64,000 nt of DNA from Acidiphilium rubrum (GTDB lineage: Bacteria; Pseudomonadota; Alphaproteobacteria; Acetobacterales; Acetobacteraceae): NCBI RefSeq assembly GCF_900156265.1, contig NZ_FTNE01000015.1, positions 1 through 64,000 on the forward strand, read 5' to 3'. Shown here in pieces: positions 34,810-42,670 of the stretch. The notes beneath the pieces were generated by a model. That model was not told where the DNA came from. It searched no databases and saw only the letters and a program-made list of their open reading frames with translations. The position numbers were made by a program, and so were the translations under genes. The first letter of the stretch is position 1. Every line of letters begins with the position of its first letter.

Positions 34810-35606
34810 GGCGGCCGATGATCCCGCATGACCGGCGGGGCGTCGCGGCGCTCGAGTTCGCTCTGGTCTTACCGCTGATGCTCGCCCTGCTGTTCGGTGT
34901 GTACGAACTCTCTGAACCGATGATGATCAATCAGCAAGTGTATGCCGCAGCCCATAGTATCGCCGCTTCGGCGAGCAGCCTCGCGGTACAGGCGGATGGA
35001 TCGACCTCGCTCACCTACGCACAGGTGCAGTTCGAAGCCTCGACCATTTTCGCCGAAATTCCGGCGCTGCGCGCGCATCAGCAGGGCTACGGCGCCGGCA
35101 ATACCGGTGTCACGATTTCCGCCGTGGTGTTTGAGCCGACCACTGCGGGATGCGTTCCAAGCCCCGGAATAACCTGTAATTACACCGCAAATGTCGCCTG
35201 GAGCGTAGCCTATACCGGCGGCGACAGCGGGCTGGTTCCGTATGAAGCGCTGCTGGGTCAAAGCGATTGTCAGACGCTCGTACAGACGCCTCCCGGTGGC
35301 GGCCCGCTCGGCACGGTGCCGACTCAGGATGTCACGACCAACGCGACATCCTGGCCGGACCCGATCCTGGTGGTCGATGCGTTCGTGAAATACCAGCCTC
35401 TTCTGCTCACTTATACAAAGACGCCGTTCTACCTTCTGGCGATCGGTTTCTGGCCGGTGCGCAGCGTGAAAGCCGCATCGGTTGATGCCACCGGCAACGC
35501 GACCCCGTTATTGCCGGACCAGCAGTACACGACACTTACGGGGCTCCAGAACGCGCCGAGTGGATCGTATTGCGTCAACCCGAATTATGCGGAGCCAGGC
35601 GCATGA
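34803..35606 (+). CDS. Second TadE/TadF-like pseudopilin
   Basis: A 267-residue protein with the same plan as its neighbour: DRRGVAALEFALVLPLMLALLFGVYEL near the N-terminus, then an exported domain with cysteine pairs (CVPSPGITC, SDCQTL). ATG 34803 overlaps the preceding stop by 7 bases; a Met six residues later is an alternative start. It is co-translated with the TadG gene that follows with an ATGA overlap. Confidence 0.85.
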   Translation: MLRRPMIPHDRRGVAALEFALVLPLMLALLFGVYELSEPMMINQQVYAAAHSIAASASSLAVQADGSTSLTYAQVQFEASTIFAEIPALRAHQQGYGAGNTGVTISAVVFEPTTAGCVPSPGITCNYTANVAWSVAYTGGDSGLVPYEALLGQSDCQTLVQTPPGGGPLGTVPTQDVTTNATSWPDPILVVDAFVKYQPLLLTYTKTPFYLLAIGFWPVRSVKAASVDATGNATPLLPDQQYTTLTGLQNAPSGSYCVNPNYAEPGA

Positions 35607-37333
35607 TCGCGGCGATCCGCCAGTTCGTGCGAGACAGGCGCGGCGCGATCGCGATCATCTTCGGCGTCTCGCTCGTGCCGATGGCGATGCTGGTCGCGTT
35701 GTCGATAGATTTCTCCTTCTATGTGCAAGCGCGCGCACAGATCAGCCTCGCGGCTGACGCCGCAGCCACACATGCCATCCGGGCTGCGACCGAAACCTAT
35801 ACCGCCGAAATCAACCAAAACCCCCCGCTCTCGGCCGCTACCGCCATTGCCGATGCCGATGCCGCCGGCGAAACCGCTGGTGCCGCGTGGTTCTGGGCCC
35901 AGCTCGGCACGCTGCCGACCGCCAGCGTCACCGGATCGAACAATCCGAACGTCACAGTGCAATCCAACACCAATCTCTCGCCGACAAACCCGGCCGGTTT
36001 TACCGCAACGGTCGCATATACCGGTACCTACCCCCCATTTTTCGACCCACTTTTCGCCAGCACCGCCCATTGGAAGATTACCGGAACTGCGGGTGCGCTA
36101 TCGACCTACTCCTATGTCGAGATTCTGATGCTGTTGGATAATTCATCCTCGATGCTGATCGGGGCCACGCCGCAGGCCATTACGACGCTTGAACAAAATA
36201 CAGTCTGCATCCCGAGTGGTTGGTCACATACGGGTGCAAACGGTACAGGCGCTTATGACAATAATAGTCCGCTCGACGTTAACATGATAACAGTACAAAA
36301 CTACAATGCGGGTAACTCGGCATCCAACCTCAACGGTTCTTGTGCCAACGGTTACAGCGGCCCCTACGCACCTTGTGGATTCGCGTGCCATTCAGACCCA
36401 AACGACCAAGATTACTACGGAATAGCTCGGTCCCTCGGCGTCGAACTTCGACTTGATGTTGTGCTCAGTGCCGCCGAAAACGTCATTGCCTCGATGAAAG
36501 CCAACGAACAGGCGCCTGACCAATTTTCGGTCGGCGTCTATCAATTCAACAACGATATCGAACCGCTTTTTCCTAACTCGCAGGCAAGCGGCACAAATAC
36601 TATGCAGGAAGCGTCAACCGACTTGTCGGGCGCGCTCGGTGCGGTCGACGCGATCGACTGGAACAAAAACAAAAGTGAGTCTGTTGAACCTCCGCTCCAA
36701 GCAAATGCGGGTATTGGCAACACGGACTTGGTACAGTCAGTTCACGATCTTCTGAGAGGTACCTACGCGAACGGTGGCTCATTTGGCCCGGCAATCTCAA
36801 AAGCCGGCACCGGCAACACCGCCGGCAGCCCCCAAAAAGATATCTTTATCGTCAGCGACGGCATGGAAGACAATTCGGATTCACACCCTCGGGTTCTGGG
36901 TGAAATGACCGGTGTCGCCGCCGAAAACGATACCATCACGCCTAGCCCGGGTGTATGCAAACAATTCAAGAAACTCGGCTTTACAGTCTATGTTCTCTAT
37001 GTTGAATATAACCCAATTCCCAATACTTGGTACGAAGGCAGAGAGCCCTATGAAGTTGTACCGAAGCCGACGCCGTACTTTACCGAAGACTTTTCCAATG
37101 TTGCCCAAACCAACACATCGCCGGCGCCGATCGACTTCGCTCAAGCGACCGCTGTCACTAATAACCGCAACACGCCCGCCGCCAACGCCATGTCACCCGA
37201 CGAAGCGGCACTCCAAGCCTGTGCCTCATCACCCACCGATTTCTACATCGCCAATGATGCCGCCGCGATCAGCACGGCGATGAACGCCATGCTGAAATCC
37301 GCGCTCAGCAGCACCATCCGCCTGACGCAATAA
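35603..37333 (+). CDS. tadG: TadG-like pilus assembly protein with VWA-like domain
   Basis: A 576-residue protein. The N-terminus (RDRRGAIAIIFGVSLVPMAMLVALSID) is the TadE-like membrane anchor. A VWA-type domain begins around residue 170 (YVEILMLLDNSSSMLIGATP, a DxSxS metal site) and continues through PQKDIFIVSDGMEDN. The stretch 36180-37160 is visibly richer in A and T and in Asn/Tyr codons than the flanks, although the frame is intact. The stop codon abuts that of pyrE, which faces it. Confidence 0.82.
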   Translation: MIAAIRQFVRDRRGAIAIIFGVSLVPMAMLVALSIDFSFYVQARAQISLAADAAATHAIRAATETYTAEINQNPPLSAATAIADADAAGETAGAAWFWAQLGTLPTASVTGSNNPNVTVQSNTNLSPTNPAGFTATVAYTGTYPPFFDPLFASTAHWKITGTAGALSTYSYVEILMLLDNSSSMLIGATPQAITTLEQNTVCIPSGWSHTGANGTGAYDNNSPLDVNMITVQNYNAGNSASNLNGSCANGYSGPYAPCGFACHSDPNDQDYYGIARSLGVELRLDVVLSAAENVIASMKANEQAPDQFSVGVYQFNNDIEPLFPNSQASGTNTMQEASTDLSGALGAVDAIDWNKNKSESVEPPLQANAGIGNTDLVQSVHDLLRGTYANGGSFGPAISKAGTGNTAGSPQKDIFIVSDGMEDNSDSHPRVLGEMTGVAAENDTITPSPGVCKQFKKLGFTVYVLYVEYNPIPNTWYEGREPYEVVPKPTPYFTEDFSNVAQTNTSPAPIDFAQATAVTNNRNTPAANAMSPDEAALQACASSPTDFYIANDAAAISTAMNAMLKSALSSTIRLTQ

Positions 37334-39485: not shown

Positions 39486-40496
39486 ATGAGTCCGATCCCG
39501 TTTTCCGTCCTCGACCTCGCCCCGGTCCCTGAAGGGTCAACCGCGGGCGATGCCCTGCGCAACAGCGCAGACCTCGCCGGTCACGCCGAGCGGCTGGGTT
39601 TTAACCGCTATTGGCTGGCCGAGCACCACAACATGCCGGGTATCGCCAGTGCGGCCACCGCGGTGGTCATCGCGCATGTTGCCGCGGCCACCAGCACCAT
39701 CCGCGTCGGCTCGGGCGGCGTCATGTTGCCGAACCATGCACCGCTGGTGATTGCCGAGCAGTTCGGCACGCTGGCCGCCCTGCATCCCGGCCGAATCGAT
39801 TTAGGCCTCGGGCGCGCGCCCGGAACCGACCAGCGCACGGCGCGCGCCCTGCGGCGCGACCTCGCTGGCAGCGAAACCAGGTTCGCCGATGACGTAATCG
39901 AGCTGCAAAGCTATTTCCGCCCTGCCCCGCCCGACCAAGCCGTGCGCGCGGTGCCGGGCGCCGGGCTCGATGTGCCGATTTGGCTGCTCGGATCATCGAC
40001 CTACAGTGCTGAACTCGCGGCGGCACTCGGCTTGCCGTTTGCGTTCGCCTCGCATTTCGCGCCCGATTTGCTGCGCCAGGCGCTGCAGATTTATCGCACG
40101 CGCTTTCAGCCCTCTGCCCAGTTGGCGCGGCCTTACGCGATGCTGGGCCTGAATGTGATCGCCGCTGAAACCGATGCACGGGCAGCCCATCTCTTCACAT
40201 CGTTGCAACAGGCTTTCATCAACCTGCGTCGCGGCCGTCCTGGAAAGTTGCCCGCCCCCGCCATGATGCAGGACATCTGGTCCCCGATGGAGAAAGCCCA
40301 ACTCGACCACGCGCTGGTTCACTCCATCGTCGGTGCGCCGGACACGATCAGCACGGGTCTCGACCGGTTTATCGCCGAATTCCGTCCCGATGAATTGATG
40401 ATCACTGCGCAGATCCACGATCATGGCGCACGACGTCGCAGTTATGAAATCGTTAGCGAAGTAGCCATTACACGTAAACAGTGCATTGCTGCCTGA
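39486..40496 (+). CDS. LLM-class flavin-dependent oxidoreductase
   Basis: A 336-residue luciferase-like monooxygenase homologue: [20 protein letters not shown] near residue 40, [20 protein letters not shown] near 77, and [17 protein letters not shown] near 100, all hallmarks of the alkanal-monooxygenase-like group that uses FMNH2. The true substrate is unknown. It stands alone, 55 bases after icd. Confidence 0.88.
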
Positions 40497-40598
40497 AGTT
40501 TACAATTGTCAATTGAATGAAGACGATTTCCTATCGGAGTCTTTTACATATCACTAGTTGAGATGCCACAAATACTTGAAATTCTCGATTGTTTTATA

Positions 40599-40614
40599 TG
40601 GCACGTTTTGTGCA
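40599..40614 (+). promoter_or_regulatory. Sigma-54-like promoter upstream of the PEP-CTERM gene
   Basis: TGGCACG-TTTT-GTGCA matches the -24/-12 consensus TGGCACG-N4-TTGCW except for one base, with the essential GG and GC dinucleotides at the proper spacing. It would start transcription near 40626, about 68 bases before the ATG. In exosortase systems of other bacteria PEP-CTERM genes are controlled by RpoN with the PrsK/PrsR pair, which makes the site plausible; it has not been tested here. Confidence 0.5.
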
Positions 40615-40693
40615 GCGACTTTCATGCGCTCCGGGCTGAGTGCGCGGTGATTTCATAGGCGACGCATCTTTCTCATTGTGTGCGGGAATTGAC

Positions 40694-41050
40694 ATGACTA
40701 GATCTCGAAACCTGCTTTTGGCCGGTGCGGTCGTTGCCGTTGGGATCACGGCAGTCGCCCAGGCAGGCATTTATTCGTTTTCTGTTACCGAGGGCCTGAC
40801 AAATGGTGGTATCGCGGTTTACGAGAATGGCTCCGCTATCGGCACGACGACCACAGGACCAACGAGTGCCGTCATCGAGTCAGTTGTCGTCCCGACGACG
40901 GGCGATATCACGCTTTAATACACCCGGCAAAACGGCTCGCCGTCGATCCTCGACGTGAACGTGCCCGAGTCAGGCTCGCTCGCCCTGCTCGGTACTGGTC
41001 TGCTGGGCCTCGGCCTGATCGCGCGTCGCCGGCACAACAAATCGGTCTGA
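40694..41050 (+). pseudogene. PEP-CTERM-type secreted protein interrupted by an in-frame TAA
   Basis: The frame starts at ATG 40694 after GGGAATTGAC and encodes a signal peptide (RSRNLLLAGAVVAVGITAV, cleavage after AQA) and a short body ending DITL, then TAA at 40916-40918. The same frame continues without a break for 43 codons to TGA at 41048-41050 and encodes a textbook PEP-CTERM tail: VPESGSLALLGTGLLGLGLI followed by ARRRHNKSV. Exosortase/archaeosortase cleaves such tails at the Pro-Glu motif. The stop therefore separates body and sorting signal by a single codon. It may be an inactivating point mutation, a sequencing error or a readthrough site. If translation ends at TAA, the product is a 74-residue secreted protein without sorting signal. 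Confidence 0.72.
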
Positions 41051-41072
41051 TCCAAGCGATCGAACCGATAGG

Positions 41073-41103
41073 GAACGGCCCCGCTCAGGCAGGGCCGTTT
41101 TTT
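41073..41103 (+). terminator. Rho-independent terminator after the PEP-CTERM gene
   Basis: GAACGGCCC-loop-GGGCCGTT followed by a run of Ts (41098-41103) forms a GC-rich stem with U-tail on the plus strand, 23 bases after the TGA. It lies between the convergent PEP-CTERM and efflux-factor genes, and its presence after the tail supports the whole 119-codon frame as the original gene. Confidence 0.85.
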
Positions 41104-41104
41104 G

Positions 41105-42670
41105 TCAGCCCGGCGCCGCCGGATAGGTTGTCTCCCACCCGCCACCCAACGCCTGATACAGCTTGACCAGATCGGTCGAAACCTGAGCCAGGCTCTCGGC
41201 CTCGGATTGGCTCGCCGCCAATTCGCTCTGCTGCGCCGTCAACACCTGCAGGTAATCGGCCAGGCCCTCCCGGTAGCGCTCCTGCGCCAAGCCAAGCGCG
41301 CGCTGGCTCTCCGCCACATCGGTCTTCAACGCCGCGAAGGTGTTCTGTTCCTGATCATACGCAGTCAGCGCATTATCGACCTGATGGAACGCCGTGAGCA
41401 CGGTCTTGGCGTAATCGATCGCGGCAGCCTTCTGCTCGGCGGTGCGCAGATGCAACTGGCCGTTCAGCTTGCCACCCTCGAACAGCGGCAGGGTAATCTG
41501 CGGCCCGATCGCATAGGTCACCGCCGCCAATTGGTTGAGGTTGGAGAATTGCAGCGCCTGCAGCGAAACCGAGCCGGAGAGCGAGACATCCGGAAAGAAA
41601 TCCGCCTTGGCGACGCCGATTTCCGCGGTCGCCTCATGCAGCTTGGCCGAAGCCTCGCGCACGTCCGGCCGGCGCTGCAACAACGCGGAGGGCAGGCCGA
41701 TCGGCACCACCGGCGGCACCGCAGGCACCGGTGCCGCGGTGATCAATTCCGCGCGCAACGCCTCCGGGCCGCGCCCAAGCAGCAGGCTCAACTGGTTGAT
41801 ATCCGCATCGATCGCGGTTTCGAGCGCGGGCAGTTTCGACCGGATCGAGGCCGCCTGCGCCCGGGCATCCGCAACATCGAGCGCATTGGCAAGCCCGGCC
41901 TGCGCGCGCTGACCGGTCAGGCCCGCGATATGGTCAGCACTCTTCAAATTGTCTTTCGTGATTTGCAGCACGGTCTGTTCGGCACGCAGATTGACATAGG
42001 TCTGCGCAACCTCGGCCTCGGTATTCAGCAGCACGGCGCGGCGCGCATCGCGGGAGGCCTGCACGGCGGCGAGCGAGGCTTCAACTGCGCGGCGGTTCTT
42101 GCCCCACAGGTCGAAATCGAAAACCGAGGAAAACCCGTACTGAAACAGGTTGAACGGCTGGATCGCCGAACCCGGAATGCCGCCGCCGCCGATCGAACTT
42201 GCAGATCCGCCAGCGGTCGAGCCGGCATTGGTGCTCGTGCTGGTGTTGGAACCCGAACCGCTGAGGGCGGTAAACACGCCCTTCTTGCTCGGCCCCTCAC
42301 GCGTCAGTGAACCGGCAAAATTCAGGTTGGGATAGAGCGTCGCCCCTTCGATCTGCGCCTGCGCCTGCGCCTCGGCCAGCCGCTGGGTTGCAATCCGCAC
42401 GTCCAGATTCTGTTGGATTGCCTGGGTCTCCAGGCTGGTCAGCGCGGGATCGCCGAAGCTCTGCCACCATGCGAGATCGACCTTCCCTTGGCTGACACCG
42501 TTGGGCGCGGTAATCGCCGGCCGATTGTCGAGAAACGATGCGGCGGTGTGCGGATGGGGATTATGGAAATTCGGCCCCAACTCACAGCCACCGAGCGTCG
42601 ATGCGGCGAGCAGCCCCGCCCCCAGGGCCGTTCCCCATCGCAACCGGTGACGGAAAGATTCAAACCTCAT
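41105..42670 (-). CDS. Efflux outer-membrane factor lipoprotein (NodT/OprM family)
   Basis: A 521-residue RND/MFS-associated outer-membrane channel. ATG 42670 follows AAAGGAGTG and gives a lipoprotein signal (GLLAASTLGGC, lipidation near Cys 28). Two OEP repeats are visible (VDLAWWQSFGDPALTSLETQA early; LLQRRPDVREASAKLHEATAE midway). It overlaps emrB by 11 bases and completes an EmrA-EmrB-channel tripartite pump. Confidence 0.9.
   Translation of the reverse strand: MRFESFRHRLRWGTALGAGLLAASTLGGCELGPNFHNPHPHTAASFLDNRPAITAPNGVSQGKVDLAWWQSFGDPALTSLETQAIQQNLDVRIATQRLAEAQAQAQIEGATLYPNLNFAGSLTREGPSKKGVFTALSGSGSNTSTSTNAGSTAGGSASSIGGGGIPGSAIQPFNLFQYGFSSVFDFDLWGKNRRAVEASLAAVQASRDARRAVLLNTEAEVAQTYVNLRAEQTVLQITKDNLKSADHIAGLTGQRAQAGLANALDVADARAQAASIRSKLPALETAIDADINQLSLLLGRGPEALRAELITAAPVPAVPPVVPIGLPSALLQRRPDVREASAKLHEATAEIGVAKADFFPDVSLSGSVSLQALQFSNLNQLAAVTYAIGPQITLPLFEGGKLNGQLHLRTAEQKAAAIDYAKTVLTAFHQVDNALTAYDQEQNTFAALKTDVAESQRALGLAQERYREGLADYLQVLTAQQSELAASQSEAESLAQVSTDLVKLYQALGGGWETTYPAAPG

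Follow-up and report, generated by a model that had tools for sequence, protein, structure and literature searches.

A shortened PEP-CTERM surface-protein gene of Acidiphilium rubrum with an in-frame stop is very probably a recent pseudogene

Proteins of the PEP-CTERM/exosortase system are recognised by a sorting tail that scores above the curated cut-off of a PEP-CTERM model (PF07589, TIGR02595) and that continues the reading frame of a secreted body, in a genome that encodes an exosortase (PF09721). In genes that are expressed by readthrough, a stop codon is conserved among homologues and the frame stays open behind it, and in ordinary bacterial pseudogenes, disabled by deletion and nonsense mutation, a single copy carries several lesions and a relative has an uninterrupted copy at the corresponding locus. 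The locus described here lies in a window of 64,000 nucleotides of A. rubrum (contig NZ_FTNE01000015.1, positions 1 to 64,000), in which a PEP-CTERM tail is separated from a secreted body by a single TAA. Comparison with its relatives indicates that the locus is very probably a recent pseudogene, the remnant of a PEP-CTERM surface-protein gene affected by an internal deletion and a nonsense mutation, and not a switch that controls anchoring.

The reading frame starts with ATG at 40694 on the forward strand and runs for 74 sense codons to the in-frame TAA at 40916-40918, behind which 43 codons of the same frame lead to TGA at 41048-41050, exactly as the initial annotation had placed them. In the following, the window frame is counted as 118 codons, with stops uncounted as residues except for an X at the TAA. 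Codons 1-38 (40694-40807) comprise the start codon, a segment that resembles a signal peptide by eye, and the first residues of the mature body; this part shares DNA similarity with Acidiphilium sp. PA over the ATG and about 50 bases, and is colinear up to codon 38 with two relatives, L041 and L051. Codons 39-74 (40808-40915) represent the retained C-terminal part of the body directly 3' of the presumed deletion junction, an edge that the alignments place with an uncertainty of a few codons. Behind the stop, which is evident from the frame itself, comparison with eight relatives identified the last 14 codons of the body (YTRQNGSPSILDVN, 40919-40960), of which 8-10 residues are identical to each of these relatives. 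The profile matches then assign the remainder up to the final TGA (40961-41050) to a PEP-CTERM-like tail with VPES, a hydrophobic helix and an Arg-rich end. All these parts lie on the forward strand, as does the upstream neighbour, a luciferase-like monooxygenase gene (PF00296; 39486-40496), and the downstream neighbour, which encodes an outer membrane efflux protein (PF02321; 41105-42700), is convergent on the reverse strand. A strong terminator had also been claimed behind the tail. Folding against shuffled sequences supports a terminator-like hairpin on the forward strand at 41062-41110 (-27.2 kcal/mol, z -5.26; equally stable in 0 of 200 shuffles), but the consensus scan listed no terminator at the locus. 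Further upstream, the window contains a 587-aa open frame (35570-37333, forward strand), the start of which looks similar to a TadG-type pilus assembly protein.

The tail behind the stop is genuine, since its 43 residues alone pass both PF07589 (22.2 bits, cut-off 20.7) and TIGR02595 (26.7, cut-off 16). When the whole frame was scored with X at the stop, TIGR02595 was again passed (23.7) and PF07589 fell below its cut-off (18.7). The search for an exosortase that had been recommended was successful, with one PF09721 match above the cut-off (198.5 bits) in the genome of A. rubrum; among 14 control genomes, this model matched Methanocaldococcus jannaschii only. The same genome has 20 matches to PF07589, of which 19 are above the cut-off. 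In these respects the locus resembles exosortase-sorted proteins, from which it differs in that the tail is severed from the secreted body by the TAA, the sorting motif reads PES instead of PEP, and the middle of the body is missing. The window tail is the weakest of the 19 above-cut-off tails (21.5 bits as opposed to 23.2-34.2 for the other 18), and its open frame has 43 residues as opposed to 164-420 aa for the others.

Relatives of the gene were found at 18 places in eight of 60 genomes (E <= 1e-8) and, within the family, at 22 places in 17 of 397 genomes (E <= 1e-12), the genome of the window being included in both counts; the 397 genomes are a sample of a larger group, and not every first-look candidate was scored. 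A comparison with orthologues had been suggested, and it recovered the tail in the relatives, but not the stop: none of the other 17 places (E <= 1e-8) and none of the other 21 places (E <= 1e-12) listed contains a stop inside the match, and a conserved stop with an open frame behind it is therefore absent from them. Likewise, among 17 places compared within the genome of A. rubrum itself, the window copy is the only one with a stop inside the match. Apart from the window, these searches yielded 31 distinct places, 28 of which were extracted with start codons chosen by hand. Three were left out: L039, which is cut by a contig end but whose remainder is open and keeps VPEP, and L022 and L023, which are proteins without the HDDG segment and apparently built differently. 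The 28 extracted relatives have 219-258 aa, compared with 118 codons and a stop in the window frame, and each carries a PEP tail; HDDG is present in 27 of them and SDDG in one. In alignment A1, identities to the window frame were 52, 55 and 48%.

These relatives also show where the stop falls. According to the initial annotation, it stood exactly between body and sorting signal. However, in the 28 relatives its position is occupied by an amino acid (Y in 13, V in six, W in four, D in three, T and L in one each) within the last conserved body segment, before an invariant NG and 14 codons 5' of V90 of the VPE motif, and the stop is therefore located in the body. The statement that the tail shows no decay holds only in part. 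Behind the stop, at least 27 of the 28 relatives agree in 14 columns, 13 of which the window copy retains, but the sorting motif, which is PEP in 28 of 28 relatives, has become PES, and the score is the lowest of the 19 mentioned above. The residue after HDDG is also changed, being Ala in the window copy and Ser in all 28 relatives. Both before and behind the stop, differences from diverged relatives, with one genome taken per species, fall mainly on third codon positions. Counts of this kind are compatible with both a recent loss and continuing selection, and they suggest that protein-level selection acted on the part behind the stop until recently, or continues to act. As the tail is otherwise well kept, the loss looks recent.

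The body that ends at the TAA had been regarded as complete, whereas it falls short of the relatives by about 100-116 residues. Pairwise alignments with a very cheap gap extension were calculated for 14 of the 28 relatives. With L041 and L051 (234 aa each), a single gap behind codon 38, 116 residues long, suffices to align the window frame, and 118 plus 116 residues give 234. A large gap at the same place, accompanied by small gaps, was obtained with L043, L044 and L050. Thus, 5 of the 14 alignments support a large gap, and in the other nine it is split, an outcome that cheap gap extension favours. The sides of the large gap were misplaced in the global DNA alignment and, towards the N-terminus, in the protein alignment of the 28 relatives, and the pairwise alignments and blastn were used instead. 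We infer from these alignments that the shortfall probably reflects an internal deletion of some 100-116 codons that kept the frame.

The closest comparison is offered by Acidiphilium sp. PA (G003, NZ_JAIMBY010000005.1), in which an uninterrupted PEP-CTERM gene of 220 aa (L010) is located between the same luciferase-like and efflux neighbours, the latter being 94% identical to that of the window. Both copies agree in their neighbours and start and have a similar signal segment and tail, whereas L010 is uninterrupted, is 102 residues longer than the window frame, and retains PEP. Compared with this uninterrupted homologue from the same locus, the window copy is thus disrupted. With blastn, window positions 40452-40743 match G003 in 198 of 292 bases, a stretch that begins at the end of the upstream gene, spans the intergenic region and the ATG, and stops about 50 bases inside the gene; no significant match to G003 was obtained for the C-terminal part. 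This part has 58% identity to L009 from another genus, compared with 44% to the same-locus copy in G003. Since it is closer to L009 and lies beyond the DNA match to G003, exchange between members of the family may have shaped the C-terminal part, as may fast divergence, and the locus could be a chimaeric remnant. The downstream efflux gene is present in all 13 genomes of the genus, including that of the window. In four of them (L027, L028, L031 and L032), the aligned ends of the neighbours are only 37-142 bases apart, which leaves no room for the gene. In the remaining seven, the flank of at most 1.5 kb yielded no upstream gene, so these genomes are uninformative on the locus.

A recent pseudogene is the explanation best suited to these results. 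Observed are the in-frame stop, a frame shorter than that of the relatives, a same-locus copy without interruption, an altered motif, and the lack of a stop in the matches of the listed relatives. The order of events and the loss of function are inferred from them. The product of the ancestral gene would have been a secreted protein of about 220-235 residues, with HDDG in its body and a tail for sorting by an exosortase. The middle of this body would have been lost through an internal deletion of roughly 100-116 codons that left the frame intact, a nonsense mutation would have interrupted the frame within the last segment of the body, and the sorting motif would have been altered from PEP to PES. 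If it is still expressed, the product would be a secreted fragment of 74 residues without a sorting signal. The very recent mutation proposed earlier agrees with this insofar as a recent nonsense mutation fits, but it would be one lesion beside a large internal deletion. Against a pseudogene it can be said that the frame is kept across the presumed deletion, and that the third-position bias and the 13 retained columns, which fit a very recent loss, would also fit continuing selection. The split gap in nine of the 14 alignments and the closeness of the C-terminal part to L009 weigh on the same side. Otherwise, nothing notable distinguishes the window copy from ordinary bacterial pseudogenes, and the frame across the deletion may simply happen to be kept. 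The significance of the locus is small: it represents a single broken member of a family whose gene number differs between Acidiphilium genomes.

Among the alternatives, a sequencing or assembly error at the TAA, so that the locus encodes a shortened PEP-CTERM protein of 118 residues that still reaches the surface, is unlikely. The well-kept tail and the frame that is otherwise open up to it would agree with such an error, but it leaves the missing body residues and PES unexplained, and the assembly figures are good (completeness 100, contamination 0.16), although they are silent on single bases. An erroneous stop as the sole fault was set aside because the middle of the body is missing, and a naturally short PEP-CTERM protein was rejected as well, as no such length occurs among the 28 extracted relatives. 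It is very unlikely that the stop was selected for the release of a functional secreted protein of 74 residues, with the tail as a leftover. The start, the signal-peptide-like segment and the frame up to the stop are intact, which speaks for such a protein; however, no relative ends at the position of the stop, the 74 residues alone gave no Pfam match and a single weak NCBIfam match below the cut-off, and a simple sigma-70 consensus scan of the locus, which is weak evidence, found no promoter-like site.

Programmed or regulated readthrough, which had been suggested to yield a released and a sorted form, would draw on the presence of an exosortase and on the continuation of the same frame into a recognisable tail with third-position-biased differences. 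It is nevertheless extremely improbable: the stop falls within a body segment that is conserved, the sorting motif has itself changed, the copy in G003 is one open frame including the tail, and no relative, motif or position speaks in its favour, none of the listed relatives having a stop inside its match. In addition, TAA is generally the least leaky stop codon. A limited search of a literature library found nothing on PEP-CTERM together with readthrough. If true, readthrough would represent a new means of releasing some copies of a protein and anchoring others, but the analysis gave no indication of it. It is likewise extremely improbable that a shortened surface protein has been remodelled into a leaky-stop gene, with a secreted form of 74 residues and an exosortase-sorted form made by rare readthrough.

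Solitary tails of this kind occur elsewhere in the genus. Of 111 PF07589 matches listed, 100 exceed the cut-off, six of them, including the window tail, in frames of less than 100 aa. Two of the six are cut by contig ends (G012:C66 and G001:C40). The other three are L052 (G001:C23:57921-57992; 38-aa frame), L053 (G003:C12:544931-545002; 84-aa frame) and L054 (G007:C6:2271041-2271103; 86-aa frame), for which no secreted body was recognised just upstream when the frames on their own strand were read by eye; they are perhaps further gene remnants. In the genome of A. rubrum, two PEP-CTERM genes, L006 and L002 (G000:C36:141711-142811), are adjacent on the same strand, the second of which is related to the window gene. 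Another PEP-CTERM tail (26.9 bits) is found on the same contig outside the window (G000:C30:86072-86155), in an open frame of 258 aa.
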